Positions 26,067 to 63,895 of a stretch of 64,000 nt of DNA are shown one piece after another. The position numbers and the translations under genes are program-made. The stretch comes from Crambe crambe (lineage: Eukaryota; Porifera; Demospongiae; Poecilosclerida; Crambeidae): NCBI GenBank assembly GCA_963924555.1, contig OZ004586.1, positions 4,670,501 through 4,734,500 on the forward strand, given 5' to 3'. The notes under the pieces were generated by a model. That model saw only the letters and a list, made by a program, of their open reading frames with translations. It was not told the DNA's origin and searched no databases. Each line of letters starts with the position of its first letter. Position 1 is the stretch's first letter.

Positions 26067-26139
26067 GTTTCTTTTCTTTTTTCTTAGTGCTTGAAGTTGA
26101 ATGTATCACTTCAACTGAGAGTACAGCCAAGTGTATATA

Positions 26140-28429: not shown

Positions 28430-28783
28430 AGTGAGAGTAAAAACATTTCTTCTAAATGAAAGAGTGATGTAGGCTTGAGTACATGACTATAAAAAGTACG
28501 GAAACAAGGTGCTGGCTATGTACTGACCCTACATTGCTGCATGGACTGCTCTGCTAACTGTCCTAAAATTGACATAAACCCTACATTGCTGCAAGGTGTA
28601 GCCAAAAAAGATAGTATGGCAGCAACAATGTAGGGTTTATGTCAATTTTATGACAGTTAGCAGAGCAGTCCATGCAGCAATGTAGGGTCAGTACATAGCC
28701 AGCACCTTGTTTCCGTACTTTTTATAGTCATGTACTCAGCCTACATCACTCTTTCATTTAGAAGAAATGTTTTTACTCTCATA
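28430..28783. mobile_element. Long hairpin MITE, about 160-bp arms
   Basis: The left arm begins AGTGAGAGTAAAAACATTTC and the right arm is its inverted copy ending GTTTTTACTCTC. Internal landmarks are AAGTACGGAAACAAGGTGCT and ACCCTACATTGCTGCATGGA. The loop is about 40 bp. The terminal GAAGAAATNTTT motif ties it to family F. Non-coding. Confidence 0.85.
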
Positions 28784-28787
28784 TATA

Positions 28788-29030
28788 TCTAGGTCTACAC
28801 TCCAAAATGCCCCAAGCTTAGGTATATTGGTATGCTATGTATGTGTCCTGAAGTAGTAGCACTGCGGTGCCTAATTCACATGCTCTAATTGTAATCAAGC
28901 TGTAGATTGTTTCGCTCTGTCAAATGCTATAGTAGAGGTTCTTAGGCTTATCTAAGTGCTTTGTTACATATAAACACAGCAGCAAATCTCCTGAAGAGTT
29001 GAAGCACTAAAGAATGCTTTCTCGCTCGCA
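28788..29030 (+). mobile_element. Old, decayed Helitron/Helentron-like unit
   Basis: Starts TCTAGGTCTACACTCCAAAA after ATATATA, exactly as in the 47-55 kb array. It keeps CTTAGGCTTATCTAAGTGCT and a TTTCTCGCTCGC-like tail, but its 3' CTAG end is lost. Much more diverged than the array copies, so it is an older insertion of the same family. It abuts the right end of the 28.4-kb hairpin. Confidence 0.7.
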
Positions 29031-29756
29031 TCATACAGACCATTAATTTTAATTAAGGCAGTCATAGATTTCGTACCCTGACATGTGTGGAATTAAAATT
29101 GGAGCTGGAACATGTAGACAAAGCACTATGGTATTAGAGAGTTCAGTAGCACTCTCTATATAGAGATCCTAAATAAAGTAGAAAATTTACACAGCCAAAA
29201 TCACTACTTCCACCATAATTATGCCTTAGCTTCACATACATGATGTACTTCAAAAATTATGAAATTCTGCTCTCTTCTTTCTATCATAATTCTCACACTG
29301 CACTACTAACAGTTTTCATATCAAACTAGACCTCCCGCCTTTATTTTTTATGCTACTTCAAGAACATGTTGGTACAGTCTTGCTACACTCCTTAATTTTA
29401 TAACATTATGGATGCCACTATTTGTGTACATGCACATAATATGTATGCCACCTCTAAGCCACTTTAGATTATAGCTAGTCACAATCAAGGAATCTCATCG
29501 GTCCATTTGGTGAATTCTATTCACTTAGAATCACGCCTTATGGCACTTAGAATTCATTTGCCCTAGGATGAAAACCCGGTAAATATGGTCATTCCAACTG
29601 GTCCAATTCTAGCAATGCATTGTGGTGGCCATGGTTATTGTTTTAGGGGTGCTCTGATTCATGTTTGTTGCATTTAAAAATCATGGTTATTATTTCCAAG
29701 TGTGTGTTGAGGTAAGTATGTTAAACAACTCCAGTGATTGGCTGTAGTCTAAATAA

Positions 29757-43954: not shown

Positions 43955-44815
43955 AATTGGACAACTGTTTCTGGTTCCTGCACCATCAAACTGGGATCCT
44001 TTGCCACTTCAAGAAAGTCCCAGAGCTCTGTCATCTGATGGTGAAAGTCCCGCAGTACATATTTGACAAGGTCACAGACTTGATTGTTAATACCTTCACA
44101 TTTGAGAAGACTGAAGGTGACTACATTGCTGAGGAAGAATTCTCCAAGAAGGAAATCTTTTCGAAAGTTTCAGGAGGCTATCATCCGATTCAGATCTCTG
44201 AGCTTCACAACCGCATTGTAGCTCCTTTGAGAATAGAGGGCACTTTAAGGAAGTACTTTCTTCATTGTGCTCTGGTCCATGTTGACCCTCAGGAAGCTCC
44301 AGAAGTCTCTCCAGAATGGCTCCCTTCCATTTTCTTTGGGTTCAGCAGTGGTTACTGCCCAAATGGCATATTCGCTGCTCTTGTGGCTGATCTCCTTCAC
44401 ATGAAACAAGGTTTAGCTTTCCAGTGGGAGTTTTATGAAGATAAAATATTTAGAAATCAAATTTGTTTTTCGATTGGTCCTTTCTTGGATAGATTTCGCT
44501 TCACTGTGTCTTCAGATCATGTCAGAATAGATGTCTTACTAAGCGATGTGCCTGTTCATAATCACATGTTATCTGAGATCTGCAATCATGTAATGCAACG
44601 GATTTCAAGCAGTTTATCTGATGTCATGGCAAGGCTGAACTATGATGTTGGAAAGGTTGTTCACCAATTGGCATTTCTATGTCCTCTGTCCACCTGCATC
44701 CAAAGCTTTCATCTTGCATATGTACGCTTCAATAAGAATGCCCCATGTGCCCTGAAATGCTCTTTCCTCAAGAATTGACCAGCTGAATTACCTGTAAAAT
44801 ATGGTTTGATGAGGT
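43955..44815 (+). pseudogene. Partial tandem copy of COR-like region
   Basis: The open frame begins without an ATG at LDNCFWFLHHQTGILCHFKK and is closely similar to the 38.8-39.7 kb exon through SIFFGFSSGYCPNGIFAALV, LNYDVGKVVHQLAFLCPLS and FHLAYVRFNKNAPCAL. Similarity begins abruptly at about 43,955, so the P-loop and G3/G4 region are absent. The equivalent of the DLMSSSELIKLFEYL segment is shortened. A TGA follows SFLKN about 12 codons before the expected splice site, and the frame into GATGAG|GTCAGT is shifted. The copy is probably not functional as a COR protein. Confidence 0.75.
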
Positions 44816-44969: not shown

Positions 44970-45030
44970 GTGAGTCTGATATCTATAATAATTGTGTAAT
45001 TATGTGTATATTAAATGATTCATTTCATAG

Positions 45031-45309
45031 ACATTGATGATCTTGGGGATGTTTTGGATGAAGTCAAAACTCTGTCTGCAAAATGGAAACTCCTCTCCAC
45101 TTATTTGCATCTTCGTGAAGATTTCCTTGAAGTTATTGAGCAGAACAATCCCAGAGATGCAATATCTTGTCTTTGTGAGGCACTTGCAGAGTGGCTGAAG
45201 TACAACTACAACTGTGAGAAACATGGAAAGCCAAACTGGAGAAGTTTAGCCAGAGCTGTTCAGAGTCTGGATCAAAGCCTCTCTGAAAAGATTATCAGTG
45301 ATCACCAAG
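45031..45309 (+). CDS. Death domain exon E (phase 1-1), second copy
   Basis: A 279-nt open exon holding a complete death domain: DIDDLGDVLDEVKTLSAKWK, LLSTYLHLREDFLEVIEQNN, RDAISCLCEALAEWLKYNYN and GKPNWRSLARAVQSLDQSLS. All six helices can be placed, including the KWxxL, L-x-E-W-L and PNWRSLxxAV signatures. Unlike the terminal domain of the first copy it is not split by an intron. Intact and symmetric, it resembles exons A-C, and may still be spliced even though the COR-like part upstream is broken. Confidence 0.75.
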
Positions 45310-46131
45310 GTGAGATAACAAGTGCATCCATAGCTGGCACTATTATAGCTCTATGACTGTTTGCTCCCATCTATGTAAGAGTTTTTAGCCATCATGCACC
45401 TACCATCATCCATGTTCTTTTATACTACATGCACATGCAGCAGTATCCTGATGAAGTCAGCAAAATTTCATATTATAAAGACTCATCACTTCCACATTTC
45501 ATGCACTTCAAGCTAAAAGTCAAACCAGTACAGCAGTACTATTATATACTGATTTTGTTTGTTTCATTTCGTTTTTTCTTCTTCTTCATTATTGTTGTTA
45601 TTGCATTATTTTTTAATTAAAAATTGTTTGAGGTAATGAACAATATCAGTCACTCATTCAGCTTGAATTGCAAGTAGAATCTGTCAGACAACAAAGCTCT
45701 TCTGGTCCACTTTTTTAATGGAAGTCAAGTTCTTCATGCATAGCTACTGTTGCAAGACTACGGACACAATTGCTTAATTTTGCACAGTCTTTTTGCTGAT
45801 TTATACTCACACAATGATGTGATCACCAATGAGAGAGGACTCATGTTTATGTTGTTAAAATAATTATTATTGTCTGCATTATATTATTAGATGGAGGTTA
45901 TGATACAATACACAGGTTCTAACTAGCTATTATGACATCACATCAGAACTACGTACATAGCTATAACAACTGCTAAGATAATACAATGAAGATCTACTTC
46001 AGGCCTAAAAGAATCATTTCCAACTAAAATACAGTAAAATAAACAATCTTTTCCTATGTTACCCTATGAATACTCTACTGGGTTCTTAAAAAGATTAGAA
46101 GAGACAATCAGTGTTGTTGTTTTTTGATCAG

Positions 46132-46214
46132 CAGCAACACCAGTATTGCCACCACTAGAAGGAGGGACCTCACCAGCTTCAAGCACTCTTGGAATGATGC
46201 ACAACAAGTGGTGA
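46132..46214 (+). CDS. Possible terminal exon after death domain E
   Basis: After TTGATCAG (or TTGATCAGCAG, a NAGNAG-type alternative acceptor) a phase-1 exon would read ATPVLPPLEGGTSPASSTLG then MMHNKW and TGA at 46,212-46,214. Proline/serine-rich, like the linkers of this gene. Supported only by consensus and phase. Confidence 0.4.
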
Positions 46215-46564
46215 ATACTAGAGCTACTGCAGCAGGTGTGTCAAGGAGTCTGATGAAGAGTCACCCTACCCAACATATGGAACGTACATAGAGTCCTGAA
46301 ACTAATAGTGGAGATTGATGATTGCATACTCTCTAGAGTATTAGTAGCAAGCAGTTAGCTATATAATAATTACCTCATTTATCTGGAATCCCCCTCCCCA
46401 GATTCATTAATATGTAGCTACATGCTCTCCAAACATGTATAACATTTTTTTGAGAGTTCTTTGAGAGTGTTTTGCACAGGCACATAATTAGCAACTGGTA
46501 CAACAACAATCAGTATTAGCTACATCCACGACACTGTATGTATACCTCAATTATCCAGACTAAT

Positions 46565-46702
46565 TGCAGCGAGCGAGCGAAGCGAGTGAGCTGACTCTCA
46601 GCTCATGACTCATTGAAATTTTAAATATATATATATATCAGAGAGTGCGCTAGCACTCTCTAAGTAGGGATAGCGGGTCAAAGGTCATAAGACTGTATAA
46701 AC
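46565..46702. repeat. Solo Helentron 5' module plus small palindrome
   Basis: TGCAGCGAGCGAGCGAAGCG through CATTGAAATTTTAAATATAT is the same 75-bp leader found in front of the array units, but here it is followed by AGAGAGTGCGCTAGCACTCT, a palindrome, instead of a unit. Related palindromes with the adjoining AGGTCA sequence lie near 23,690-23,745. Probably a truncated end. Confidence 0.55.
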
Positions 46703-46884
46703 TAAAAACTCTTCTTTCTCTTCTACCCTTACTCTACAGGTTCTCAGAAGGCTACAGTGAATTATTACATCTACAAAGAAGAGAGGAGAATGTTCCAAAA
46801 CCAAAAATTCATTCGCTAACATAAGAAAAAAACGATGTCTAAAATTGACTTTTGTTCTTTTTCTTTATAATAATAATAATAAGG

Positions 46885-47190
46885 ATAATAAATATAAGAT
46901 CGACGTACCGGCTTACTGGCTATAGTCATCAAAATTCTGCTTTGGCCATCTGTTAGAGCGGCACCTAGAGGCTGGTCTTTTGCTATTAGTTTTGACTAAG
47001 GCTCTACTTCACTATTCGAGCACTCGGAACACTAGCCAATCTTTCGACGCCATTTTGAAGCGCACGTCGGTAGGGGGCGGGGCTTATGGGCGGAGCCACG
47101 TAAGCTTCCAAGTTTAGGTAGCTAATTTTATTCTTATCTGATGATGTTCTAGTCACTCCTTGCTGAATTACAGTACAGATGCTCATCTTA
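46885..47190. repeat. Inverted duplicate of 26,140-26,445
   Basis: Reverse-complement partner described at 26,140. Contains CGACGTACCGGCTTACTGGC and GGGGGCGGGGCTTATGGGCG. Lies immediately left of the split family F hairpin, as its partner does. Confidence 0.75.
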
Positions 47191-47272
47191 TAGTAGTATC
47201 ACTACTGCCATTCAATTCTTTACATACACAAACTTACATTCAACTTCAAGCAATAAGAAAAAAGGATGGAAA

Positions 47273-48154
47273 CAAGTGAGTGCAAAAAATTTCTTCTAAA
47301 TAAAAAGGTTAAGTAGGGATAGCTTAAAATCTAGCTGGGCTATAATAATGTACTGCAGCCTCGTATGAAAACAATCCCTACTTTTACAACTGTCATAGCT
47401 AGCTATAGGTAGTGGATGTAAATGTAGGGATTGTTTTCATACGAGGCTGCAGTACATTATTGCAGCGAGCGAGCGAAGCGAGTGAGCTGACTCTCAGGTC
47501 ATGACTCATTGAAATTTTAAATATATATATATATCTAGGTCTACACTCCAAAATGCCCCAGGCGTACGTACGTACGTACGTGTCGTGCAATAGTAGCGCC
47601 CCTGCGCGTGCATTTATGCGCATGCTCCAGTTGCAATTGATTGATTTCTACATCGCTTTGTATATAGCATGGTGGATAGTAGGGCTAGGCTTATCTAAGT
47701 GGATTGTAGGCACTAGACATATCCAAGTGCTTTGTGGTAAGTACTTAGCTTTCTATGCATGCAGCTGCCTGCCACTTAGCTACATAACACAACAGCAAAG
47801 CAAGCTCAACATTTCTACAGCCTTTTGGGCAGCAGGCACAAGAGGCTTATCTAAGCGGCTTGTAGGCACTAGGCTTATCTAAGTGCTTTGAGGTAAGCAT
47901 GTATGCAGCTGCCTGCCACCACTTACATGATTCTTAGCAATATCAAGCACTGAAGCCTATCAGCTACTTTAATTGCTCACTGTCAAATGCTGCACATTGC
48001 TATAGATACTCAACAGCAAATGAAAATCGTTGAAGAATACTTGCTTGCTCGCTGTCAACTGAATGTTGAACATTGCCCTAGTTATAGCCCAGCTAGATTT
48101 TAAGCTATCCCTACTTAACCTTTTTATTTAGAAGAAATTTTTTGCACTCACTTG
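47273..48154. mobile_element. Family F hairpin MITE split by a Helentron-like unit
   Basis: The left arm starts CAAGTGAGTGCAAAAAATTT at 47,273. The right arm resumes at 48,083 (TATAGCCCAGCTAGATTTTA) and ends TTTTTTGCACTCACTTG. The intact left arm predicts the uninterrupted right-arm sequence GTACATTATTATAGCCC. The observed junctions GTACATTAT and TATAGCCC sum to exactly that, so the insertion added no target duplication and fell between two T residues. Confidence 0.85.
47461..48081 (+). mobile_element. Helentron-like unit 1 (type I)
   Basis: About 621 bp. The 5' leader TGCAGCGAGCGAGCGAAGCG, an AT run, the core start TCTAGGTCTACACTCCAAAA (47,534), a (CGTA)n run and two related internal sub-repeats (GGCTTATCTAAGTGGATTGT; GGCTTATCTAAGCGGCTTGT). 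The 3' part has a reversed GCTTGCTCGCTG, the hairpin AATGT-TGA-ACATT and terminal GCCCTAG followed by T. Hairpin plus CTAG|T is the Helitron-group 3' end. Leader and tail are partly complementary, as in Helentrons. Non-coding. Confidence 0.75.
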
Positions 48155-48158
48155 TACA

Positions 48159-48685
48159 TCTAGGTCTACACTCCAAAATGCCCCAGGCGTACGTACGTAC
48201 GTACGTACGTGTCGTGCAATAGTAGCGCCCCTGCGCGTGCATTTATGCGCATGCTCCAGTTGCAATTGCTTGATTGATTTCTACATCTCTTTGTATATAG
48301 CATGGTGGATAGTAGGGCTAGGCTTATCTAAGTGGATTGTAGGCACTAGACATATCCAAGTGCTTTGTGGTAAGTACTTAGCTTTCTATGCATGCAGCTG
48401 CCTGCCACTTAGCTACATAACACAACAGCAAAGCAAGCTCAACATTTCTACAGCCTTTTGGGCAGCAGGCACAAGAGGCTTATCTAAGCAGCTTGTAGGC
48501 ACTAGGCTTATCTAAGTGCTTTGAGGTAAGCATGTATGCAGCTGCCTGCCACCACTTACATGACTATTAGCAATATCAAGCACTGAAGCCTATCAGCTAC
48601 TTTAATTGCTCACTGTCAAATGCTGCACATTGCTATAGATACTCAACAGCAAATGAAAATCGTTGAAGAATACTTGCTCGCTCGT
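48159..48685 (+). mobile_element. Helentron-like unit 2 (type I, no leader, 3' truncated)
   Basis: Core start TCTAGGTCTACACTCC follows CTTGTACA directly at the end of the split MITE, without the GCAGCGAGCG leader. It keeps both sub-repeats and breaks off within CTTGCTCGCTCG, joined to another leader module (about 48,686-48,752). Confidence 0.65.
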
Positions 48686-48755
48686 TACAGCGAGCGAGCG
48701 AAGCGAGTGAGCTGACTCTCAGGTCATGACTCATTGAAATTTTAAATATAATTAT

Positions 48756-49452
48756 TGGCGAGCGAGCGAAGCGAGCGAAGCCCCACACTAATTGGTCAAA
48801 ATGGAAAATTGCGATATTTATATGTTACACGTACGTCACTCAAAGTGCGCATGCGCTTACGCATGCGCATGAAATAGCTACTAAGCAACGTCATAATAAG
48901 CAATCATTTTCGTTAAGCTTGAAGTTGAAACACTATTGTAGCAAGTATTATGGAACCCAGAGAACCAGAAAACAAGCGAAGGAGGGCCCCAGAACACCCT
49001 CTAGAAACTGACCAGCAAAGAAGAGCGAGACCTCATGAAAGAAATGAAAGAGACAGAGCTAGAAGGAGAACAGAGTCAAAGGAACAGAGAAAAACAAGAC
49101 TAGCAAAGAAATACGACAGATAGAGCCAGGAGGAGGGAATGTACAGAGTCAGCAGAAGATAATGCTGAAAGAGCAGAGCAAATGAGAGCTAGAAGGAGAG
49201 CAGAGTCAGCAGAACACAGAGCTGCCAGATTACAGCATAATATGAGGGCTCATTATTTGAAAGACTGGCTACTGAGTCTGAACAGGAGTGGTAGCCTGGG
49301 TTCAGAGAAGACACTCTAATGCTAACTGGGAATGCACCAAGTCAGTTAACACTGAATAGCTAGATATTAAAAGTCACTGTTGGGGCTATATAATCATAAG
49401 TGAGGGAGGAGCACATTGAAATGACCATTGGCTGCTTGCTCGCCCAACTAAT
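48756..49452 (+). mobile_element. Helentron-like unit, type II copy A
   Basis: Starts TTGGCGAGCGAGCGAAGCG and ends near GCTTGCTCGCCCAACTAA; these are partial inverted repeats. It encodes the start of a basic protein, MEPREPENKRRRAPEHPLET then QQRRARPHERNERDRARRR, followed after a frame change by RARRRECTESAEDNAERAEQ and RARRRAESAEHRAARLQ. This RRAES-type repeat style is seen at the N-termini of animal Helitron proteins. There is no helicase or Rep region, so it is non-autonomous. The 20-bp hairpin cassette seen at the 3' end of copies B and C is absent here. Confidence 0.65.
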
Positions 49453-50089
49453 TGCAGCGAGCGAGCGAAGCGAGTGAGCTGACTCTCAGGTCATGACTCA
49501 TTGAAATTTTAAATATATATATATATATATCTAGGTCTACACTCCAAAATGCCCCAGGCGTACGTACGTACGTACGTGTCGTGCAATAGTAGCGCCCCTG
49601 CGCGTGCATTTATGCGCATGCTCCAGTTGCAATTGCTTGATTGATTTCTACATCGCTTTGTATATAGCATGGTGGATAGTAGGGCTAGGCTTATCTAAGT
49701 GGATTGTAGGCACTAGACATATCCAAGTGCTTTGTGGTAAGTACTTAGCTTTCTATGCATGCAGCCGCCTGCCACTTAGCTACATAGCTAACACAACAGC
49801 AAAGCAAGCTCAACATTTCTACAGCCTTTTGGGCAGCAGGCACAAGAGGCTTATCTAAGCGGCTTGTAGGCACTAGGCTTATCTAAGTGCTTTGAGGTAA
49901 GCATGTATGCAGCTGCCTGCCACCACTTACATGACTCTTAGCAATATCAAGCACTGAAGCCTATCAGCTACTTTAATTGCTCACTGTCAAATGCTGCACA
50001 TTGCTATAGATACTCGACAGCAAATGAAAATCGTTGAAGAATACTTGCTTGCTCGCTCGCTGTCAACTGAATGTTGAACATTGCCCTAG
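49453..50089 (+). mobile_element. Helentron-like unit 3 (type I)
   Basis: Full arrangement: leader, AT run, core start TCTAGGTC at 49,530, (CGTA)n, two sub-repeats, hairpin AATGT-TGA-ACATT and GCCCTAG|T. Near-identical to unit 1. Directly followed by the 20-bp cassette TGCTATACGAGCATCTCTAG (50,090-50,109). Confidence 0.75.
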
Positions 50090-50109
50090 TGCTATACGAG
50101 CATCTCTAG

Positions 50110-50828
50110 TTGGCGAGCGAGCGAAGCGAGCGAAGCCCCACACTAATTGGTCAAAATGGAAAATTGCGATATTTATATGTTACACGTACGTCACTCAAAA
50201 TGCGCATGCGCTTACGCATGCGCATGAAATAGCTACTAAGCAACGTCATAATAAGCAATCATTTTCGTTAAGCTTGAAGTTGAAACACTATTGTAGCGAG
50301 TATTATGGAACCCAGAGAACCAGAAAACAAGCAAAGGAGGGCCCCAGAACACCCTCTAGAAACTGACCAGCAAAGAAGAGCGAGACCTCATGAAAGAAAT
50401 GAAAGAGACAGAGCTAGAAGGAGAACAGAGTCAAATTAAGGAACAGAGAAAAACAAGACTAGCAAAGAAATGCGACAGATAGAGCCAGGAGGAGGGAATG
50501 TACAGAGTCAGCAGAAGATAATGCTGAAAGAGCGGAGCAAATGAGAGCTAGAAGGAGAGCAGAGTCAGCAGAACACAGAGCTGCCAGATTACAGCATATG
50601 AGGGCTCATTATTTGAGAGACTGGCTACTGAGTCTGAACAGGAGTGGTAGCCTAAGTTCAGAGAAGACACTCTAACGCTAACTGGGAATGCACCAAGTCA
50701 GTTAACAACCTGAATAGCTAGATATCGAAAGTCACTGTTGGGGCTATATAATCATAGTGGAGGAGGAGCACATTGAAATGACCACTGGCTGCTTGCTCGC
50801 CCAACTAATGCTATACGAGCATCTCTAG
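50110..50828 (+). mobile_element. Helentron-like unit, type II copy B
   Basis: The same structure and the same truncated basic reading frame as copy A, including the shared frame change after LAKKCDR. It ends with the cassette TGCTATACGAGCATCTCTAG (hairpin ATGCT/AGCAT then CTCTAG) at 50,809-50,828, and the same cassette also precedes it. Confidence 0.7.
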
Positions 50829-51448
50829 TTGCAGCGAGCGAGCGAAGCGAGTGAGCTGACTCTCAGGTCATGACTCATTGAAATTGTAAAATATATATAT
50901 ATATCTAGGTCTACACTCCAAAATGCCCCAGGCCTACGTACGTACGTACGTGTCGTGCAATAGTAGCGCCCTGCGCGTGCATTCATGCGCATGCTCCAAT
51001 TGTAACTCTTGATTGATTTCTACATCACTTCGTTATAGTACGGTGGATGGATAGTACGGCTAGGCCTATCTAAGTGGATTGTAGGCATTAGACATATCTA
51101 AGTGCTTTGTGGTAAGTACTATGCATGCAGCTGCCTGCCACTTACATTACTCAACAGCAAAGCACAAATGAATTAGAGCCTATCAGCTCTAAGCATAAGT
51201 GGTTCTTGCTCACTCACTCGCTGTCTAACATTTCTTGTAACAGTCTTTTGGGCAGCAGGCACAAGGCTTATCTCAGTGGCTTGTAGGCACCAGGCTTATC
51301 TAAGTGCTTTGAGGCAGCTTTCTATGTATACAACTGCCTGCCACTTACATAACAGAGCAAAATCTTCTAAGGAGTTTAAGCTCAAACGAATATCAGTATA
51401 GGAATACTTGCTCGCTCGCTGCGACTCAAATGTTGTACATTGCCCTAG
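50829..51448 (+). mobile_element. Helentron-like unit 4 (type I, diverged)
   Basis: Leader and core present (core near 50,903) but with many substitutions and small indels relative to units 1, 3 and 5. Its 3' hairpin is AATGT-TGT-ACATT followed by GCCCTAG: the stem is kept while the loop differs. An older or separately evolved subtype. Confidence 0.7.
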
Positions 51449-52095
51449 TTGCAGCGAGCGAGCGAAGCGAGTGAGCTGACTCTCAGGTCATGACTCATTG
51501 AAATTTTAAATATATATATATATCTAGGTCTACACTCCAAAATGCCCCAGGCATACGTACGTACGTACGTGTCGTGCAATAGTAGCGCCCCTGCGCGTGC
51601 ACTTATGCGCATGCTCCAGTTGCAATTGCTTGATTGATTTCTACATCGCTTTGTATATAGCATGGTGGATAGTAGGGCTAGGCTTATCTAAGTGGATTGT
51701 AGGCACTAGACATATCCAAGTGCTTTGTGGTAAGTACTTAGCTTTCTATGCATGCAGCTGCCTGCCACTTAGCTACATAACACTACAGCAAAGCACAAAT
51801 GAACTATCAGCTCAACATTTCTACAGCCTTTTGGGCAGCAGGCACAAGAGGCTTATCTAAGCGGCTTGTAGGCACTAGGCTTATCTAAGTGCTTTGAGGT
51901 AAGTATGTATGCAGCTGCCTGCCACCACTTACATGACTCTTAGCAATATCAAGCACTGAAGCCTATCAGCTACTTTAATTGCTCACTGTCAAATGCTGCA
52001 CATTGCTACAGATACTCAACAGCAAATGAAAATCGTTGAAGAATACTTGCTTGCTTGCTCGCTCGCTGTCAACTGAATGTTGAACATTGCCCTAG
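51449..52095 (+). mobile_element. Helentron-like unit 5 (type I)
   Basis: Complete unit with the leader, core start at 51,523, both sub-repeats, hairpin and GCCCTAG|T. It carries an extra CACAAATGAACTATC segment absent from units 1-3 and shared with units 6 and 8, which defines a subgroup. Confidence 0.75.
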
Positions 52096-52103
52096 TATAT
52101 ATA

Positions 52104-52681
52104 TCTAGGTCTACACTCCAAAATGCCCCAGGCGTACGTACGTACGTACGTGTCGTGCAATAGTAGCGCCCCTGCGCGTGCATTTATGCGCATGCTCCAG
52201 TTGCAATTGCTTGATTGATTTCTACATCGCTTTGTATATAGCATGGTGGATAGTAGGGCTAGGCTTATCTAAGTGGATTGTAGGCACTAGACATATCCAA
52301 GTGCTTTGTGGTAAGTACTTAGCTTTCTATGCATGCAGCTGCCTGCCACTTAGCTACATAACACAACAGCAAAGCACAAATGAACTATCAGCTCAACATT
52401 TCTACAGCCTTTTGGGCAGCAGGCACAAGACTGACAAGAGGCTTATCTAAGGGGCTTGCAGGCACTAGGCTTATCTAAGTGCTTTGAGGTAAGCATGTAT
52501 GCAGCTGCCTGCCATCACTTACATGACTCTTAACAATATCAAGCACTGAAGCCTATCAGCTACTTTAATTGCTCACTATCAAATGCTGCACATTGCTACA
52601 GATACTCAACAGCAAATGAAAATCGTTGAAGAATACTTGCTTGCTCGCTCGCTGTCAACTGAATGTTGAACATTGCCCTAG
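52104..52681 (+). mobile_element. Helentron-like unit 6 (type I, no leader)
   Basis: Core start follows CCCTAGTATATATA of unit 5 without the GCAGCGAGCG leader. Otherwise complete to GCCCTAG|T. Shares the CACAAATGAACTATC segment with unit 5. Confidence 0.7.
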
Positions 52682-53263
52682 TTGCAGCGAGCGAGCGAAG
52701 CGAGTGAGCTGACTCTCAGGTCATGACTCATTGAAATTTTAAATATATATATCTATGTCTACACTCCAAAATGCCCCAGGCGTACGTACGTACGTACGTG
52801 TCGTGCAATAGTAGCGCCCTGCGCGTGCATTTATGCGCATGCTCGAATTGTAATTGCTTGATTGATTTCTACATCGCTTTGTATATAGCATGGTATATAG
52901 TAGACACTAGACATATCTAAGTGCTTTGTGTCTATGCATGCAGCTGCCTGCCACTTACATAACTCAACAGCAAAGCACAAATCAACTATCAGCTCAACAT
53001 TTCTACAGCCTTTTGGGCAGCAGGCTCAAGGCTTAATAGTTATCTAAGTGGCTTGTAAGCACTAGGCTTATCTAAGTGCTAGGCTTATCTAAGTGCTTTG
53101 AGGCAAGCATTACAGTTTTCTATGTATGCAGCTGCCTGCCACTTACATATAAAACTCGCATCAAAATCTTCTGAAAACACAAATGAATAACTATCAGCAC
53201 AAACACCTATAGGAATACTTGCTCGCTCGCTCGCTGGGACTCAAATGTTGTACATTGCCCTAG
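52682..53263 (+). mobile_element. Helentron-like unit 7 (type I, diverged)
   Basis: Leader present, core start TCTATGTCTACACTCC at 52,752, reduced first sub-repeat, extra CTAGGCTTATCTAAGTG repeat near 53,060-53,100, and an AATGT-TGT-ACATT hairpin like unit 4. It belongs with the diverged subgroup. Confidence 0.65.
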
Positions 53264-53980
53264 TTGGCGAGCGAGCGAAGCGAGCGAAGCCCCACACTAA
53301 TTGGTCAAAATGGAAAATTGCGATATTTATATGTTACACGTACGTCACTCAAAGTGCGCATGCGCTTACGCATGCGCATGAAATAGCTACTAAGCAACGT
53401 CATAATAAGCAATCATTTTCGTTAAGCTTGAAGTTGAAACACTATTGTAGCGAGTATTATGGAACCCAGAGAACCAGAAAACAAGCGAAGGAGGGCCCCA
53501 GAACACCCTCTAGAAACTGACCAGCAAAGAAGAGCGAGACGTCATGAAAGAAATGAAAGAGACAGAGCTAGAAGGAGAACAGAGTCAAAGGAACAGAGAA
53601 AAACAAGACTAGCAAAGAAATACGACAGATAGAGCCAGGAGGAGGGAATGTACAGAGTCAGCAGAAGATAATGCTGAAAGAGCAGAGCAAATGAGAGCTA
53701 GAAGGAGAGCAGAGTCAGCAGAACACAGAGCTGCCAGATTACAGCATAATATGAGGGCTCATTATTTGAAAGACTGGCTACTGAGTCTGAACAGGAGTGG
53801 TAGCCTGGGTTCAGAGAAGACACTCTAATGCTAACTGGGAATGCACCAAGTCAGTTAACACTGAATAGCTAGATATTAAAAGTCACTGTTGGGGCTATAT
53901 AATCATAAGTGAGGGAGGAGCACATTGAAATGACCATTGGCTGCTTGCTCGCCCAACTAATGCTATACGAGCATCTCTAG
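53264..53980 (+). mobile_element. Helentron-like unit, type II copy C
   Basis: Nearly identical to copy A over its length, with the same truncated basic frame, and ending in the 20-bp cassette (53,961-53,980). The interrupted coding remnant is shared by all three type II copies. They therefore spread after the break and depended on enzymes supplied by other elements. Confidence 0.7.
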
Positions 53981-54632
53981 TTGCAGCGAGCGAGCGAAGC
54001 GAGTGAGCTGACTCTCAGGTCATGACTCATTGAAATTTTAAATATATATATATATATCTAGGTCTACACTCCAAAATGCCCCAGGCGTACGTACGTACGT
54101 ACGTACGTACGTACGTGTCGTGCAATAGTAGCGCCCCTGCGCGTGCACTTATGCGCATGCTCCAGTTGCAATTGCTTGATTGATTTCTACATCGCTTTGT
54201 ATATAGCATGGTGGATAGTAGGGCTAGGCTTATCTAAGTGGATTGTAGGCACTAGACATATCCAAGTGCTTTGTGGTAAGTACTTAGCTTTCTATGCATG
54301 CAGCTGCCTGCCACTTAGCTACATAACACAACAGCAAAGCACAAATGAACTATCAGCTCAACATTTCTACAGCCTTTTGGGCAGCAGGCACAAGAGGCTT
54401 ATCTAAGCGGCTTGTAGGCACTAGGCTTATCTAAGTGCTTTGAGGTAAGTATGTATGCAGCTGCCTGCCACCACTTACATGACTCTTAGCAATATCAAGC
54501 ACTGAAGCCTATCAGCTACTTTAATTGCTCACTCTCAAATGCTGCACATTGCTACAGATACTCAACAGCAATCGTTGAAGAATGTACTTGCTTGCTCGCT
54601 CGCTGTCAACTGAATGTTGAACATTGCCCTAG
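53981..54632 (+). mobile_element. Helentron-like unit 8 (type I)
   Basis: Leader, core start at 54,057, an expanded (CGTA)n run (about seven units near 54,086-54,116), both sub-repeats, hairpin and GCCCTAG|T. Subgroup of units 5 and 6. Confidence 0.75.
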
Positions 54633-54633
54633 T

Positions 54634-55032
54634 TGGCGAGCGAAGCGAGCCTCTCTCTGGTCATGTCAACGGGAGCTCGAGATATATATTTATATGTATA
54701 CGTACGTCATAGCTAGCGGGCATAGTAAAAAATACGCATGCGCACGTTTGTTTGACCTTTGACCCCACAAATGAAACGTGCCCATAGCACTTAGAACAAA
54801 TAGCTGTTGCTTTCTACAGCATTTTGTTATACACAGGCGCTAAGTGGATTGTAGGCGCATGGCTTTCTAAGTGCTTGTGGTAAACATTTTACAGCCTCCT
54901 GTGTATGCAGCTGTGTATGCAGCTGCCACAACCACTGCAATATCTTAGCCCAATGAGTCAAATGCAAAGTATAAATGACTTTCATCAACTGCTTCGCTCG
55001 CCGATTGAATATGTTACACGAACATACCCTAG
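54634..55032 (+). mobile_element. Helentron-like unit, type III
   Basis: A 399-bp unit with unrelated interior but the same end logic: start TTGGCGAGCGAAGCGAGCC, subterminal GCTTCGCTCGCCG inverted to the start, hairpin ATGTT-ACACG-AACAT and terminal ACCCTAG|T. Contains a single degraded CTAAGTGGATTGTAGGC motif. A third lineage sharing terminal architecture, not sequence, with types I and II. Confidence 0.65.
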
Positions 55033-55036
55033 TATA

Positions 55037-55596
55037 TCTAGGTCTACACTCCAAAATGCCCCAGGCGTACGTACGTACGTACGTGTCGTGCAATAGTAGC
55101 GCCCCTGCGCGTGCATTTATGCGCATGCTCCAGTTGCAATTGCTTGATTGATTTCTACATCGCTTTGTATATAGCATGGTGGATAGTAGGGCTAGGCTTA
55201 TCTAAGTGGATTGTAGGCACTAGACATATCCAAGTGCTTTGTGGTAGCTAAGTACTTAGCTTTCTATGCATGCAGCCGCCTGCCACTTAGCTACATAACA
55301 CAACAGCAAAGCAAGCTCAACATTTCTACAGCCTTTTGGGCAGCAGGCACAAGAGGCTTATCTAAGCGGCTTGTAGGCACTAGGCTTATCTAAGTGCTTT
55401 GAGGTAAGCATGTATGCAGCTGCCTGCCACCACTTACATGACTCTTAGCAATATCAAGCACTGAAGCCTATCAGCTACTTTAATTGCTCACTGTCAAATG
55501 CTGCACATTGCTATAGATACTCAACAGCAAATGAAAATCGTTGAAGAATACTTGCTTGCTCGCTCGCTGTCAACTGAATGTTGAACATTGCCCTAG
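55037..55596 (+). mobile_element. Helentron-like unit 9 (type I, no leader)
   Basis: Last unit of the array: core start after CCCTAGTATA, both sub-repeats, hairpin and GCCCTAG|T, then unique sequence TTCACTTATCCAGTAGCC. Confidence 0.7.
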
Positions 55597-55599
55597 TTC

Positions 55600-56450
55600 A
55601 CTTATCCAGTAGCCTGGAAGTTTTTGGACGAAGGTGTCAAGAAAACTGAGATTCCACTGTATTGTTTTAATAAATTTTGTATTCAAGAGAATCTTGCACT
55701 CTGCTAGTGTCAGGGATGGAATTTCACAAATTTTACCTTGATCAGTGTAGTTGGAGTAGTAAGTTCTATGAAGGTGGTCACTGCATTAGTGAACCATTTC
55801 TTGGAATGCAGAAACAAGGACAGTCTTCTATGTACTATTCTTAATGAGATACAATCACTGCTGAAATACTGACACCTCTTACGTAGTTAGGAATCCTTTT
55901 CTTGATGATTTCTTGTAGCATGAAACTTTTTTGAGCTAAATAATTATAATGTTTTTTATTATTATAAACTAAATTCCTTCAGTTTTAGAGATTGTACGAA
56001 CTTAAAGCAGTCACTGTCAGCATGTTAACCCTTGGAGCCACTGCAGAGCGTTAGGATCTTTAGGGCATAGCTATAAAGGATAAAGGTAAAGAATGAGCTA
56101 CAGAAATTAATTTCCTTTTATGACTTTCAGTCTTAACTATAATAATTCATGTTTGAGTGATTTGATAGCTTCTTTTTTTTACTTCCTAGTAGAGATGGTG
56201 GAGCTTACACGGTGCAATAATGATGTCATGACTATAGCTTGAGTACAATAATTGTGAGCACACCAAATGGGAGATGTTTGTGACCATTTTGGCATCCTAT
56301 AAGAAAAGCTGATCCCTACAGAGGTGTAGATAACCTTGATAGGGGGGGGGGGGGGAGAGAGGAGGCTAAGGGTTGTAGTATGCATGCCAATAATTTATCA
56401 TGGCTGCATAAGTAGTTGCAGGAGGTGGATGTGCCTTCTGAGAAGGCCAA

Positions 56451-56481
<31 letters not shown>

Positions 56482-57175
56482 TAGTAATTCATTCATTTAG
56501 CTTCAGATATGTAGAATATTAATGATTTCATTTGTTGTAACAGTTACTGTAGTAGAATGCATACTTGGACAATTTAAATAAAATTTTCAATATTATTGCT
56601 AAAATGTGGGGGGCTTTAGCCAAAACCACCCCTTATCTACGTTTATGCTCTAGTGGAGTGCAAATAATTTTGCATCATTATGCTGATGTGTAAGCTAAAT
56701 GATCACAGCAAACTGACATTGGATAGTGAAAAAATTAATTTTATGAGAGAGGTTCGTAGCTATTATGTTCTACTACCTTTGCTAAAATCCAAGTCAGGTC
56801 TCCATGCTGATATTATAATCATTCCTGTTGTTTAATGAAAGTGAAAAAAAAATCAAAAAGGGTACAGGACCACTAACTAGCTATAGCTTTAGTCAAAGGA
56901 AATAATAATATGGATGAATCCGATATAAAGTCAGGATAGCTACATGTACGTAATGCACATAAAAAATATAATGCATGTAGATGACTCGATACGACACACG
57001 TACCTTGGTTGGTATAGCTAGTAATACTACTCACTAGTACAGCCAGTAGCTACAACTCATACTATAATACACTGAAGAAAATAAAAATTTGAAAATCAAG
57101 CTAAACTAATTATGATAGCTATAATAATTGTTATAATGATACGATCTGTTAAAGTTATTGTACAATACATTTTCA
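55600..57175. other. No gene seen; microsatellites
   Basis: Unique AT-rich sequence. A G run lies near 56,341-56,354 and an (AAT)n run at about 56,450-56,481. No exon, TIR or family match. Confidence 0.45.
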
Positions 57176-58905: not shown

Positions 58906-59658
58906 TAAGTAAAACCATAGATATATGAGCCGTACCGGGATTGGAAACGGGGTCACGTGCGCCCGTAGGGCTAGTATAATTATTGAAGTACAGGCTAGTT
59001 TCACCATAGATATAAGAGGTTTTACCTTAGTTACGCGCATGAGTTACTGTCTTCCCGAGTACAAAGGACCGCAAACATATCAGAAAATCTTTGCGACTAT
59101 TGTAAAACAAGCCGCGAGAACGGTACTACAGTTTAGCCCAAACAGAATTCGTTCAAATCTCTTCAGGGGAGAAATTTATAAGAAACACTCTCAGCTCCTT
59201 GCCTGAATCTATCTTGTGTACCATTTGCAAGTAAGTGCTATATAATGCAGAGTTAGCATATAGTGGATAATGTAAAGCTACCAAATGTGCAACTAAATCC
59301 ATTGTCACTAGAATTAAATAATGAATAGTTTATATCTACTGCCCTCATCTTTGTAATTCAAAGGCTCAATTTTGTGTACCATAAGCAACTGTGTGTTAAA
59401 GGATAGGACTTGTTTTCTGATTAGTAGCAATTGCTTACCTATTAAAGTAACTAAATGTGCTATTTTGCTGAATGCAAGCTGTTTAGCATCCGACTTATGC
59501 AGGGATAAAGTTACAGCTAGCTACACTATAGCTCTATAGCTTAAGGCATAATATTGAGTCCCACATTCCCAAACCAAATTAATAGCTATACACTTTGTGA
59601 TGAATATATATCACAAAGTGTAGCACTAGCTGACATGGTACTGTAACATGCATGCAGA

Positions 59659-60384
59659 ATGCCTCGGAAGAAAAGATTTACTCATTTCAAGAATGGAGAG
59701 AGGAAGAAACAGGCTGCTAAGAGGGCACAATTAGACATGAACCAATTATACCTGGCAGTAAGGGAAGATATAGATGGATGGGTTGATTTAACTGATCAAT
59801 CGAAGGGTAGTATGTCTTTTCGTTGCAAATCATCCAATGCATATGAGCTCACGATTCATGATGATTTTTCATGGGAGATATGCATTCATGGACGACAAAT
59901 CAACCACACAATGTTGGCACTACCCAAGCTTCTCAACAAAAAAGAATTAATAGTAAATGTTACACACATTCTCAGTAATTCAAAATTATGCCCAGGAAAT
60001 CCAGACAAGAAATTCATTGATATGATCTTGTCCCCAACTTATGAAGGCAAAATAAGAACAAGTGCCGGATCGCTGGTAGCAGAGGTGATTCAAGGGTTCT
60101 CTGTTTGGTATAACGGTAAAGTATTTAACTCAACAGTTCGAACTACAGATTGTACATTAATTGTGGGTGATGGTAAATGCAATATTTGTCAGAAATTCCG
60201 ATCAAATTTAAGATCGATGTATAGTCGATTCTTAAAAAAAAAGAAAACAAAATCTAAATATTGCAACAATCGTTACCTTAGTTCAGCAGAACAGTTGAAA
60301 AAGTTGAAAAATCTTCAATCTAAAGCTAGTAATTCAAAATACAATCTCAAGAGGCTAAGAAAGAAAATAAAACAATCGGTATGA
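59659..60384 (+). CDS. P-like transposase, N-terminal part
   Basis: 241 codons starting MPRKKRFTHFKNGERKKQAA. A basic start is followed by a compact domain (GWVDLTDQSKGSMSFRCKSS, FSWEICIHGRQINHTMLALP, KLCPGNPDKKFIDMILSPTY), a CxxC segment (GDGKCNICQKFRSNLRSMYS) and a lysine-rich coiled-coil (SSAEQLKKLKNLQSKASN). I see no C2CH THAP zinc finger, the usual P-element DNA-binding domain. The frame closes at 60,382-60,384. The protein appears to continue in the next frame (YERNSVIVDQELHSDLHN), so one base-level frame change separates the parts. Coordinates cover the open frame only. Confidence 0.65.
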   Translation: MPRKKRFTHFKNGERKKQAAKRAQLDMNQLYLAVREDIDGWVDLTDQSKGSMSFRCKSSNAYELTIHDDFSWEICIHGRQINHTMLALPKLLNKKELIVNVTHILSNSKLCPGNPDKKFIDMILSPTYEGKIRTSAGSLVAEVIQGFSVWYNGKVFNSTVRTTDCTLIVGDGKCNICQKFRSNLRSMYSRFLKKKKTKSKYCNNRYLSSAEQLKKLKNLQSKASNSKYNLKRLRKKIKQSV

Positions 60385-60400
60385 AAGAAATAGTGTTATT

Positions 60401-61288
60401 GTGGATCAAGAATTACACTCTGACCTCCACAATATAATGGAAGAAAATAAACACAAAATTAATGATATATATCCGAAAGGATCATTTCACAGGCTATTTT
60501 GGGAAGAACAATTGAAGGTGGCCAGATTGACGAATTCTCGTCAGATGCGTTGGCACCCGATGATGGTGAGATGGTGCCTCAATCTGAAATTCCTATCCAC
60601 AGCAGCATATCATGCATTACGAACATCAGGCATGGTCAAGGTTCCATCGGAAAGAACCTTGCGTGACTACACTCATTATATCAAGAGTGCACCAGGATTT
60701 TCTGAAGAAGTTGACCAAATGTTGGAGGAAGAGGCAAAATTATCCGAATTACCTGATTGGAAGAGACATGTGACATTGGTTTTGGATGAGATGAAGGTGA
60801 AGGAAAGCCTCGTGTACAACAAACATCAGACGAAAGTGATAGGTTTTGTCAACATGGGAGATATTGGTGATCATCTTGATCAATTGGAGAGAGATATTGG
60901 TAATGAAAAAACACCACATGTTGCTACCCATGTACTGACACTAATGATTCGTGGCATTTTTTTCCACCTACATTTCCCATATGCAACTTTTGCAACCACT
61001 ACAATCAAAAGTGATTACCTTTTTTTGATAGTATGGGAAGCTATTGAAAGACTTGAAAAATGTGGATTTAAAGTAATCGTAGTGACTGCTGACGGTGCAT
61101 CACCGAACAGAAAATTCTTTCGCATGCACCAGAGTGACAAAGATGATGGCTTGTGTTATAAAACCAAGAATCCATATGCCTCCGATGAGAGATATGTTTA
61201 TTTCATGTCTGATGTACCTCACTTGCTCAAAACGACAAGAAATTGCTGGTCTCACTCTTCAGGCCATGGCAATACACGCAACCTGTGG
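60401..61288 (+). CDS. P-like transposase, catalytic core exon
   Basis: Open from QELHSDLHNIMEENKHKIND to RNLW|GTAAG. It carries P-element/THAP9-type core motifs: RWHPMMVRWCLNLKFLSTAA, PSERTLRDYTHYIKSAPGFS, the first catalytic segment VTLVLDEMKVKESLVYNKHQ, KVIGFVNMGDIGDHLDQLE, LMIRGIFFHLHFPYATFATT, the second-acid segment KVIVVTADGASPNRKFFRMH and YVYFMSDVPHLLKTTRNCWS. The RNase-H-like core aspartates (LDEMK, TADGASPN, SDVPH) are present. It resembles cnidarian and sponge P-like transposases more than fly P (inference from memory of the motifs). Confidence 0.85.
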
Positions 61289-61341
61289 GTAAGAAAGCAG
61301 TTAGCAATATAGTGCAAGTAAATCACATGCATAATTTTTAG

Positions 61342-61751
61342 ATCAATGGGAAGGAAATCAGTTGGCAACACCTGTGTAAGCTGTATCATGCAAAGATTGC
61401 AATGGGGAACAGATCACATGGCCTATATCTATTGCCAAAGCTGTCACTAGAGCATATCAAACTCACGTCATACTCAAGGATGCGGGTGGATCTTGCTGTG
61501 CAGGTATAAGCTACAAATGTTTAAATAGGGTGTAGAATACGATGAGTGAATTCTAATTGTAGGTATTGAGTGAGAGTGTTGGGAATGCACTTAAATTCTA
61601 TGGTGATCCAAAGACATCTGAGACTGAGCGCTTTGTGCGCATATTTGACAAATTATTTGATTGTTTAAATGGTCGGAACAAACTGGAGTACATCAAGAGG
61701 AGGAAACCAAATTTAAAACCTTATACTGACACTTCAGACGAGAGATTTAAG
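61342..61751 (+). CDS. P-like transposase, exons 3 and 4
   Basis: Exon 61,342-61,503 (162 nt, phase 0) begins INGKEISWQHLCKLYHAKIA and ends SYSRMRVDLAVQ. After a 59-bp intron, exon 61,563-61,751 (189 nt, phase 0) begins VLSESVGNALKFYGDPKTSE and includes RFVRIFDKLFDCLNGRNKLE. All junctions are AG/GT with a consistent frame. INGxxIxWxHL after NLW is characteristic of the P-element transposase family. Confidence 0.75.
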
Positions 61752-61808
61752 GTACTGTACTGCAATTTAATATTGTAATTAATGGATGGCAAAGTGGTAT
61801 TTTTGTAG

Positions 61809-61974
61809 TGGCTCAAGGAGGATTTTCTGGACTACTTGAAGGAATGGGAAGATAGCATTGAGTCTAATTCTGAAGTATCAGATGGTTACAAAGCAACTAT
61901 GTGTCTCAGCACAGAAACTCTAGAAGGCCTACGAATAACAGGTACATTTTGCAGATAGCATGCATGCATACACA

Positions 61975-62053
<79 letters not shown>

Positions 62054-62368
62054 AAATCATTCGTTGAAGTATCTAAATATCTGCTCTCTCTTCCTGGATA
62101 TCCAGAGAAGTATATTCTCGGTGAATGTTTTTCATAAGACCCCTTAGAGAATTTCTTTGGCCAAGTTCGTGGAAGAGGTGGCCGCTCTGAAAATCCATCT
62201 GTACAGGCATGCCTTGAGTCTACTCAATCTCTAAGAGTACAAGGATCTGCTTCTCTGCTACCTGTTAGAGGTAATAGTAGTCGGAAAAGACGGCTCTTGC
62301 ACAACAAGGAGGTGATTGATGATACACCTCTTCCAAAGAGACGAAGACAAGCAAAAAAGGTTGAATAA
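61809..62368 (+). CDS. P-like transposase, exons 5 and 6 (C-terminus)
   Basis: Exon 61,809-61,941 (WLKEDFLDYLKEWEDSIESN ... ETLEGLRITG, phase 0 to 1). A 110-bp intron whose 3' part is a (CT)n(CA)n microsatellite. Then exon 62,052-62,368, VKSFVEVSKYLLSLPGYPEK ... LGECFS, a TAA at 62,135-62,137, then DPLENFFGQVRGRGGRSENP, LRVQGSASLLPVRGNSSRKR and DDTPLPKRRRQAKKVE. The DPLExFFGxxRxRGGRxxNP motif is the conserved C-terminal glutamate-bearing segment of the family. The internal stop makes this copy probably inactive. Confidence 0.75.
61980..62050. repeat. (CT)n(CA)n microsatellite at a splice acceptor
   Basis: About fourteen CT units are followed by about twenty CA units, ending directly in CACAG, the acceptor of the last transposase intron. 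The CT tract doubles as the polypyrimidine tract. Confidence 0.9.
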
Positions 62369-62414
62369 TCAAGATAATGAATGACTGATATAGCTAGCTA
62401 CAATACATATTTTG

Positions 62415-63371
62415 TTAATCATCACTGGAGTCCAAGTCTGTTGATCCTTTCTTGGACTTTTTTTTGGCTAATTCCTTTCTCAATGCTTTTTTCTTACTTA
62501 CTTGCTTTGCTTTAATATCCTTATATTCTTGTAACCAAGATGTTATGGTGAATCCTCTAAGAGTGACCCACTTTTCCACTATTGTGCGTAAAAGATCATC
62601 AGAATACTTGGAATCGATGTTAATGGAAAGCATTGACCAGAGAAAATTGACATCTTCATCATCCATGATGAGGGTGAAAAGTTGCTCCTTTGACATGGTT
62701 CCACCTTTTAGATGATGAGGAAGACACTCTTGCACTTTAAGCTCAAGAGCACGAAAAAAGAGGAAACAGCTGTCATTGATTTCAAATAGGCCACCTCGGT
62801 TTATAGTACTTATCCAAATTTTAGTATATTCATAAAAATTACTTCCATCACCCTCAACTGACATGTTAGCGAGGCATTCTACAAACTGCCTGGCTTTGTT
62901 GGTATGTTCCTGTTCGTAAATTTTCTTCAATCGCATTGTGACAAATCCACTTGCATATCTAATAGCATTTTCTTCTTCCGAAGACATATGCACTGATAAT
63001 GGTCTTGATGACATAGCTGATGATGCATGATTAGTGGAAAAATGTTCAGTTAGGATTTCATTAAAAATTAGTCTGTTAATTGATTGAAGTAACACTGGAG
63101 TGCTTGTAATTTCAAGCTCAGCTAAGCTTTTGTTCCATATTTCAGGTAGCGTGTTCAGTCTGAGCTGATGAAATTTTTTTATAGCCCTTTCTCTTGCATG
63201 TGCCATACTTACTCTTCCCAACTCCATTATACATGTCTTGATAGCAGAAATTAATTCACAAAATAATTTGTCCACAACTTTTTTGTTGCTATTTGCAATT
63301 AAAAGGGACATTATTTCATTCTTCCCAGCTGCTTTAATGACCCTTTCAATCATTGGGGTACTGGCTGCCAT
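62415..63371 (-). CDS. Accessory gene of the P-like element, unknown function
   Basis: A 318-codon intact frame, MAASTPMIERVIKAAGKNEI to KKKSKKGSTDLDSSDD, convergent to the transposase and inside the terminal repeats. Mostly helical. It contains EENAIRYASGFVTMRLKKIY and FYEYTKIWISTINRGGLFEI, whose YxxGxV / INRGGL style recalls C-terminal segments of some transposase-associated proteins. The tail is a lysine-rich stretch then an acidic end, like a nuclear signal or nucleic-acid-binding tail. A CCAAT box on this strand lies near 63,770 and CpG-rich sequence near 63,740-63,830 could be its promoter. No catalytic motif recognised. It has stayed open while the transposase has not. Confidence 0.75.
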   Translation of the reverse strand: MAASTPMIERVIKAAGKNEIMSLLIANSNKKVVDKLFCELISAIKTCIMELGRVSMAHARERAIKKFHQLRLNTLPEIWNKSLAELEITSTPVLLQSINRLIFNEILTEHFSTNHASSAMSSRPLSVHMSSEEENAIRYASGFVTMRLKKIYEQEHTNKARQFVECLANMSVEGDGSNFYEYTKIWISTINRGGLFEINDSCFLFFRALELKVQECLPHHLKGGTMSKEQLFTLIMDDEDVNFLWSMLSINIDSKYSDDLLRTIVEKWVTLRGFTITSWLQEYKDIKAKQVSKKKALRKELAKKKSKKGSTDLDSSDD

Positions 63372-63895
63372 GATCTATAAGATTAAATTATTTACTATTA
63401 GGTACCTAGCTTGTATTGCATTCTAATTTTAGCACAATATCTAGCTAGCTAGAAATAATAATAATAAGCTCAGAGGTTTGGAAAGAATGTAACCCTTGTA
63501 TTGCACTAATTCAATCATACAGCAAATTTAAAGTACATAGATACATGTGTTTGAAACCCAACAAGACTCTCAAAAACGCTGACAGTATAAAAACCACAGT
63601 CCTTGAACATACCTTGAACAAGTCAGGCGGTTACTTAGCTATTAGGCTAATTATAGCTAGCCTATAGCTATCATGCTATCATACCTACTGTACACAGGGA
63701 CTTTAGCATCCACGAATCCAGTTCTCTAGCTTGCTGCAAGTCCTGCTGCCGGTCCCGCGCCTTACGCGCCATTGGTTATACGGTGAGTAGGGGGTTAATT
63801 TCCTGCACTACGGAGTTAATAGCGAAACGCGCCTAATTAATTTCAAAAGTATTACGTTTCCAATCCCGGTACGGCTCATATATCTATGGTAAAAC

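Follow-up and report, generated by a model that had tools for sequence, protein, structure and literature searches.

How does a row of transposons come to stand head to tail in a single orientation, with many of its members joined without an intervening base? The question is raised by a stretch of 64,000 nucleotides (nt) from the sponge Crambe crambe (GenBank assembly GCA_963924555.1, contig OZ004586.1, positions 4,670,501 to 4,734,500 of the forward strand), here called the window and numbered from its first letter. At 46564-55596 it carries a same-strand array of short, non-autonomous Helitron-like units of three types (I, II and III), each about 400-720 bp long; 13 units can be reconstructed, two of which (Ia and Ib) are nested inside other sequence. 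Membership of these units in the Helitron superfamily of rolling-circle elements is well supported, because two precise empty sites without target-site duplication occur together with asymmetric inverted repeats, a 3' hairpin and CTAG ends. The array is probably a stack of non-autonomous elements that grew by independent insertions at the ends of resident copies. The original prediction, made from the letters of the window, had described a same-orientation array beginning at 47461. The array is real and its orientation uniform, but it starts at 46564, with a first leader at 46564-46639 whose body lies at 48155-48684.

Empty sites and element boundaries

Two units have left empty sites that can still be read. 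The first, Ia (47460-48081), is a complete type I unit on the + strand, as are all units described below. It lies inside a foreign insert, E (46640-48154, left end approximate), that bears a palindrome with 74-nt arms at 47272-47345 and 48082-48155 (100% complementary). Once exactly 622 bp are taken out, 60 bases match the reverse complement of E's other arm without a difference, and there is no target-site duplication; by this excision Ia, which had been counted as the first member of the row, is an insertion inside E. The second, Ib (49452-50089), is a complete type I unit within a type II unit, IIa, at CAACTAA^TGCTATACG, where the caret marks the point of insertion. It interrupts IIa near its 3' end; IIa occupies 48755-49451 and, with its hairpin and CTAG, 50090-50109. 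Taking out exactly 638 bp restores 32 bases as found in the type II units IIb and IIc.

For both sites, the excision test covered equal-length shifts of -3 to +3 and 20 unequal boundary pairs. Registers 0 and +1 restore both empty sites, +2 also restores that of Ia, and no other register works. Insertion was therefore precise and without target-site duplication, at sites compatible with A^T; the element is TT...CTAG inserted in A^T or, one base over, T...CTAGT, and the former register agrees with the Helitron convention. At the Ib site, CTAATGCT, only A^T or T^G can have been the target, and TT is excluded; taken alone, the Ia site would permit T^T too.

The bases that precede the 12 leader starts can be read in the same way. 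Seven starts follow the CTAG of a neighbouring unit, four follow A (46564, 47460, 48755 and 49452) and one (48685) follows the G of a truncated body, Ba. All four starts that follow neither CTAG nor this truncated body read A/TT, where the slash marks the joint. These edges bear on the mode of growth originally proposed, in which each new unit inserts after a resident CTAG, at its 3' T. Such insertion yields the observed junctions, and for adjacent maize Helitrons a non-canonical insertion at GT was among the two explanations offered (PMC2267711). It requires G^T, however, and the four informative 5' edges all follow A; among Helraiser insertions, 46 of 1,751 fell outside AT, chiefly at TT, AC and AA (PMC4778049). 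Growth at the 3' T is thus unlikely, while the other half of the proposal, repeated insertion at a resident copy, fits the exact junctions described in the next section.

E itself splits the first unit of the array. The type I leader La (46564-46639) forms the 5' end of the array, with the flank GACTAA/TTGCAG, an A/TT 5' edge and 95-99% identity to the other type I leaders; the type I body Ba (48155-48684), shortened by about 30 nt at its 3' end, follows E. La and Ba would be one unit interrupted by E, because ATC is common to both sides of the break. Within E, the segment 46874-47455 is a reversed match (88%) to 25885-26454, and E is partly shared with 25815-26454. The window also holds palindromic foldbacks resembling miniature inverted-repeat transposable elements (MITEs) at 25816-26066, 27542-27764 and 28432-28781, which are self-complementary to 88-92%; arms related to the first of these form E.

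Shared ends and exact junctions

The three types had been predicted to share one end logic, namely a leader, a short hairpin and CTAG followed by T, and this is what is found. The leader core GCGAGCGAGCGAAGCGAG has 12 matches in the array region, of which 11 are exact, all on the + strand, and one has 3 mismatches; outside the array there is one 3-mismatch match, at 63935 on the - strand, and 100 shuffles gave none. Leaders start with TTGC or TTGG in 11 of 12 cases and with TTAC in one, Lb (48685-48754), a type I leader without a body, whose 5' edge is CGCTCG/TTACAG and which ends in ATTA ahead of a type II unit. At the other end, CTAG is followed by T at all 12 complete unit 3' ends (pattern CTAGT, with ends placed from the unit map).

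Inverted repeats are asymmetric in all three types: the distance to the end is 2-3 nt on the 5' side and 26-30 nt on the 3' side, and the longest exact runs measure 7-14 bp; in folds of each type with its own ends, pairing extends to the first T (types I and II) or the second T (type III). Each type has a perfect stem of 5-6 bp placed 2-3 nt ahead of CTAG, or 6-7 nt from the end, and the stems are type-specific (AATGT with ACATT, ATGCT with AGCAT, TATGTT with AACATA). A 5-bp stem within 5 nt of CTAG is present in 11 of the 12 units against 10 of 224 other CTAGs in the window, a count in which the units are not independent and the three types amount to three instances. The sole unit without a full 5-bp stem is IIa, whose outermost pair was lost to Ib.

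Downstream of IIa and Ib, the units follow one another closely. The type II unit IIb (50110-50828) abuts exactly on either side; it is followed by Ic (50829-51448), a diverged type I unit with 87-89% identity to the main group, and by the type I unit Id (51449-52095). Next stand Bb (52096-52681), a leaderless type I body that starts TATATATATCTAGG after CTAG; Ie (52682-53263), a second diverged type I unit (86% identical to Ic); IIc (53264-53980, type II); If (53981-54632, type I); and III (54633-55032), the type III unit, whose interior is partly related to type I. The array closes with Bc (55033-55596), a further leaderless type I body, at the host flank CTAG/TTCACTT. Exact abutment of CTAG on the next leader, as first noticed, occurs at seven junctions (IIa/IIb, IIb/Ic, Ic/Id, Bb/Ie, Ie/IIc, IIc/If and If/III), where CTAG meets TTGC or TTGG. 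Different types are joined at four of the seven.

The interiors had been described as unrelated among all three types, which stands for I against II; type III shares segments with both. Types I and III have in common a 76-column segment with a score of 55, against a maximum of 29 in 200 shuffles of 2-mer blocks, and types II and III a 25-bp segment with a score of 37 (largest shuffle 25). The scores for types I and II, 24 and 20, are within those of shuffles (up to 29 and 26), and only this pair appears unrelated. In the interiors of the type II units (48755-49451, 50110-50828 and 53264-53980) there is a frameshifted, arginine-rich repeat reading frame that is weakly STPR-like. Against Pfam, its first piece matches STPR with E 0.02 and its second piece has no match up to E 10; both pieces read through give E 0.0013 and 19.6 bits, under the 27-bit cutoff. 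This hints that type II is possibly the remnant, or the start, of a lost coding element. No paper mentioning both STPR and Helitron was found in the literature searched.

Joining a tail to a head, the arrangement of a circle or of a head-to-tail pair, lets the two ends form a single long hairpin. Folding of six exact junctions as DNA gives z scores of -3.89 to -9.28; folds as stable were seen in 0/200 shuffles for five junctions and in 1/200 for IIc/If, and the joint bases are paired in five of the six. At Bb/Ie (52636-52703, + strand), for example, TAG/TTG is paired in a fold of -26.0 kcal/mol as single-stranded DNA (z -9.28, 0/200 shuffles as stable). Even the truncated junction between Ba and Lb still folds (z -2.71). 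The tails of I, Ic and Ie pair best with heads of their own type, and so, by a narrow margin, does that of III. For the type II tail, the type III head gives a slightly more stable fold (-22.2) than the own head (-21.1); means for shuffled heads are -8.0 to -10.0. The energy model gave no support to a 5' terminal hairpin formed by GCGAAGC, a very stable mini-hairpin. The 5' terminal hairpins are weak, being less stable than most shuffles in all three types (z +1.03 to +1.61).

Growth of the array

When 11 random A^T insertions are simulated 2000 times, with every insertion placed within the array and one unit sequence used throughout, exact abutments number 0.22 on average and 3 at most, against seven observed. 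Therefore, either ends are preferred as sites, or units arrive already joined.

Joined arrival could result from concatemeric rolling-circle insertion, in which CTAG termination fails, or one circle is copied over multiple turns, and several units enter in one event. A circle would yield exact CTAG/TTG junctions, and bypass of the termination signal is the published account of tandem Helitron arrays in bat and silkworm (PMC4067079). One circle would also give identical neighbours, however, whereas abutting units of the same type are 87-98% identical (IIa/IIb 98.0%, Ic/Id 88.3%, Bb/Ie 87.2%; Id/Bb, joined as CTAG/TATA, 98.3%), and four of the seven exact junctions are of mixed type. The closest pairs are not adjacent: Ib and Bc are 99.8% identical (1 difference in the shared part), IIa and IIc 99.7% (2 differences), Ia and Bc 99.6% (2 differences), and Ia and Ib 99.5%. 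In these comparisons, gap columns are ignored, IIa is rejoined across Ib, Ba, Bb and Bc are used without leaders, and the copy at 28781 (see below) is excluded. Neighbours of 87-98% identity, with the closest pairs standing apart, therefore favour serial insertion at resident ends over simple concatemers or duplication of blocks. Simple concatemeric insertion, which the original prediction had allowed for, is opposed by neighbours of differing types or subfamilies and is very unlikely.

A satellite-like history may also be considered, in which two or three founding insertions were followed by unequal crossing-over or gene conversion that multiplied the junctions, the array being a young satellite. 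Very similar units in one orientation would be good recombination substrates; the pairs Ib-Bc and IIa-IIc, with one and two differences, could reflect conversion, and the tail of Ba has been lost. Yet no higher-order block duplicate is present among the self-matches of the window, and the blocks that look alike differ in unit subfamily or junction. IIb-Ic and IIc-If are 98.0% identical in their type II parts and 88.9% in their type I parts, and IIa with Ib is nested where IIc with If is abutting. Ia and Ib, moreover, have clean empty sites. We regard this history as improbable.

This picture is complicated by the leaderless bodies. Bb and Bc both start in a TA run directly after CTAG. Insertion of units into the TA run of their leader, which is probably what occurred, would leave such bodies; the orphan leader Lb could serve Bb or Bc, not both. 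The TA run may be prone to breakage in general, because a diverged leaderless type I body at 28781-29034 (+ strand), the sole further type I copy in the window by self-comparison, also adjoins a palindromic MITE-like element. Two leaderless bodies directly after CTAG at a TA run are equally what blocks landing there would leave, if multi-unit composites had been built elsewhere and moved in by end-bypass, some of them into the TA runs of resident leaders. In Fusarium, composite Helitrons that carry several 5' termini are on record (PMC5148889). With such composites, the exact mixed junctions would simply have arisen at some other locus, and the probability of this account is low.

Growth by independent insertion aimed at resident ends fits best. 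In this mechanism, a RepHel transposase acting in trans, a putative partner, would move the short non-autonomous elements. It would nick the resident 5' edge A^TT, where it is expected to cut a donor and which also conforms to the A^T target rule; the incoming strand would be transferred there, giving a CTAG/TTG junction and keeping the A at the outer left edge. Each 5'-edge insertion would recreate an A^TT edge for the next round. An alternative route to the same product would be cutting at an existing CTAG/TTG junction, whose sequence would be that of a circular intermediate at the point where its ends meet. Some insertions went into copies instead: Ib lies close to the 3' end of IIa, and others probably hit the TA run of a leader.

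Several observations weigh against growth at resident ends as set out here. The order of insertion is unreadable, as insertion at the 5' edge, at the 3' edge or within a junction gives identical products. Both empty sites are explained equally well by the register T...CTAGT with targets T^T and T^G. At 25816-26066, the insert's paralogue is diverged at the Ia empty site and matched it in no register, and the 5' edge at 48685 is preceded by G. Leaders and bodies are out of balance: with La and Ba paired, and Lb paired with one body, another body is still leaderless. At Ie/IIc the joint itself is unpaired, in an internal loop, and IIa/IIb folds no better than shuffles (-16.1 against a mean of -14.7, standard deviation 2.9; RNA parameters); its upstream repeat is displaced by Ib. 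Finally, Helraiser is reported to show a lack of local hopping (PMC4778049). Dating of the units gave no growth direction, with the main type I group too uniform and the tree mostly unresolved.

A broader idea is offered tentatively, as a possibility rather than a probability. Resident ends and circle-like CTAG/TTG junctions may be preferred integration targets, and one insertion might then seed a self-extending, head-to-tail array of mixed type. Internal junctions would rebuild a hairpin like that expected at a circle joint, and may be re-cut. End-targeted tandem formation by some bacterial insertion sequences is comparable.

The remainder of the window contains further features. A P-element-like transposon at 58916-63888 (4,973 bp) is probably full-length, with mismatch-free terminal inverted repeats of about 34-36 bp and GTAAAAC (7 bp) on either side; its open reading frame (ORF) at 60401-61312 has a TNP-like RNase H N-terminal domain (E 3.9e-27). 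The ORF at 37568-39745 matches a Roc COR-A domain (E 5e-08, slightly below the Pfam cutoff) and has a partial duplicate downstream at 43957-44778 (85% identical); a Death-domain ORF lies at 45015-45356 (E 1.2e-06), and a 153-bp unit is present in two tandem copies (93% identical) at 27903-28208. The transposons and domains found suggest that the DNA of the window is eukaryotic. Exact patterns for the leader and the type I body were unmatched in viral and in prokaryotic genome contigs, as was type II in the viral ones, but these are poor places for a eukaryotic element and both results say little. Rfam gave no match at gathering score in 45000-57000, and the leader core sequence was in no paper text searched.

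Comparison with known systems

Judged by their ends, the units would be non-autonomous members of the Helitron superfamily with Helitron2-like repeats and proto-Helentron-like termini, a class read from the ends alone and not from a transposase clade. No Rep or helicase match was found in 19 ORFs scanned against Pfam, out of 89 stop-to-stop ORFs of at least 75 amino acids in the window. The earlier designation, Helitron- or Helentron-like, holds for the superfamily, given the two empty sites, asymmetric repeats, hairpin and CTAG, but not for a strict Helentron.

Canonical Helitron1 elements begin with 5'-TC, which the TTGC, TTGG and TTAC leaders do not. They share with the array a 3'-CTRR (here CTAG at all 12 complete ends) and A-T insertion, here with the one-base register ambiguity; the Helitron1 rule places the hairpin 10-12 nt before the 3' end (PMC5148889), as against 6-7 nt here. 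A strict Helentron or HINE, with a TT target and T-rich ends, does not agree with the Ib site. The ends are of proto-Helentron type (5'-TT, 3'-CTAG, A^T), a group that is itself defined by Rep phylogeny. Proto-Helentron-Pi of Phytophthora infestans has these same ends and target and no target-site duplication, but is autonomous and about 14 kb long (PMC4067079), unlike the short units of the array.

In Helitron2, as published, the 5' repeat lies 0-2 bp from the end and the 3' repeat 20-30 bp from the end, just upstream of the hairpin (PMC3627910); the exact runs in the array, from 2-3 nt and at 26-30 nt, are similar. The published Chlamydomonas Helitron2 elements, in contrast, insert after TTTT (PMC3627910), and not at A^T with CTAG; folding gives no 5' hairpin support here. 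HINE and DINE-1 elements, which are non-autonomous Helentrons, likewise have subterminal inverted repeats, a 3' stem-loop and microsatellite runs, but target TT or oligo-T (PMC4067079, PMC7492417), whereas the Ib target is A^T or T^G; in mite HINEs the 3' repeat is 38-60 bp from the end (PMC4067079, PMC7492417), compared with 26-30 nt here. The one relevant passage of a DINE-1 survey concerns internal repeats (PMC2374699).

Tandem and adjacent Helitrons have been published, and the kind of element is known; what the array offers is an unusually readable example. Helitrons of Fusarium and Metarhizium show self-insertion and multiple 5' termini, and three tandem copies have been explained by two insertions into the 5' end or by a rolling circle; their termini differ from those of the array and tandem copies are few (PMC5148889). 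Helraiser prefers AT targets and forms precise head-to-tail circle junctions (PMC4778049). The silkworm Helitron paper (PMC3789558) contains none of the words tandem, head-to-tail, array and nested. Among the Helitron papers listed, which cover the literature in part, no equally long three-type array with internal empty sites was found.

The adjacent maize Helitrons, too, are distinct elements that meet at CTAG in a G/T junction, for which both 3'-GT and 5'-AT insertion were discussed (PMC2267711). They are two canonical plant Helitrons with 5'-TC, unlike the three short types with inverted repeats and seven exact junctions described here, and the choice between a concatemer and repeated insertion at one edge was argued from that single pair (PMC2267711). 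With 13 distinguishable units, two empty sites within it and seven exact junctions, of which four are of mixed type, the array is a sharper test case than the maize pair. In it, inverted repeats of the Helitron2 type occur alongside CTAG ends and A^T targeting, and it points to a way in which transposons could give rise to satellite-like arrays.

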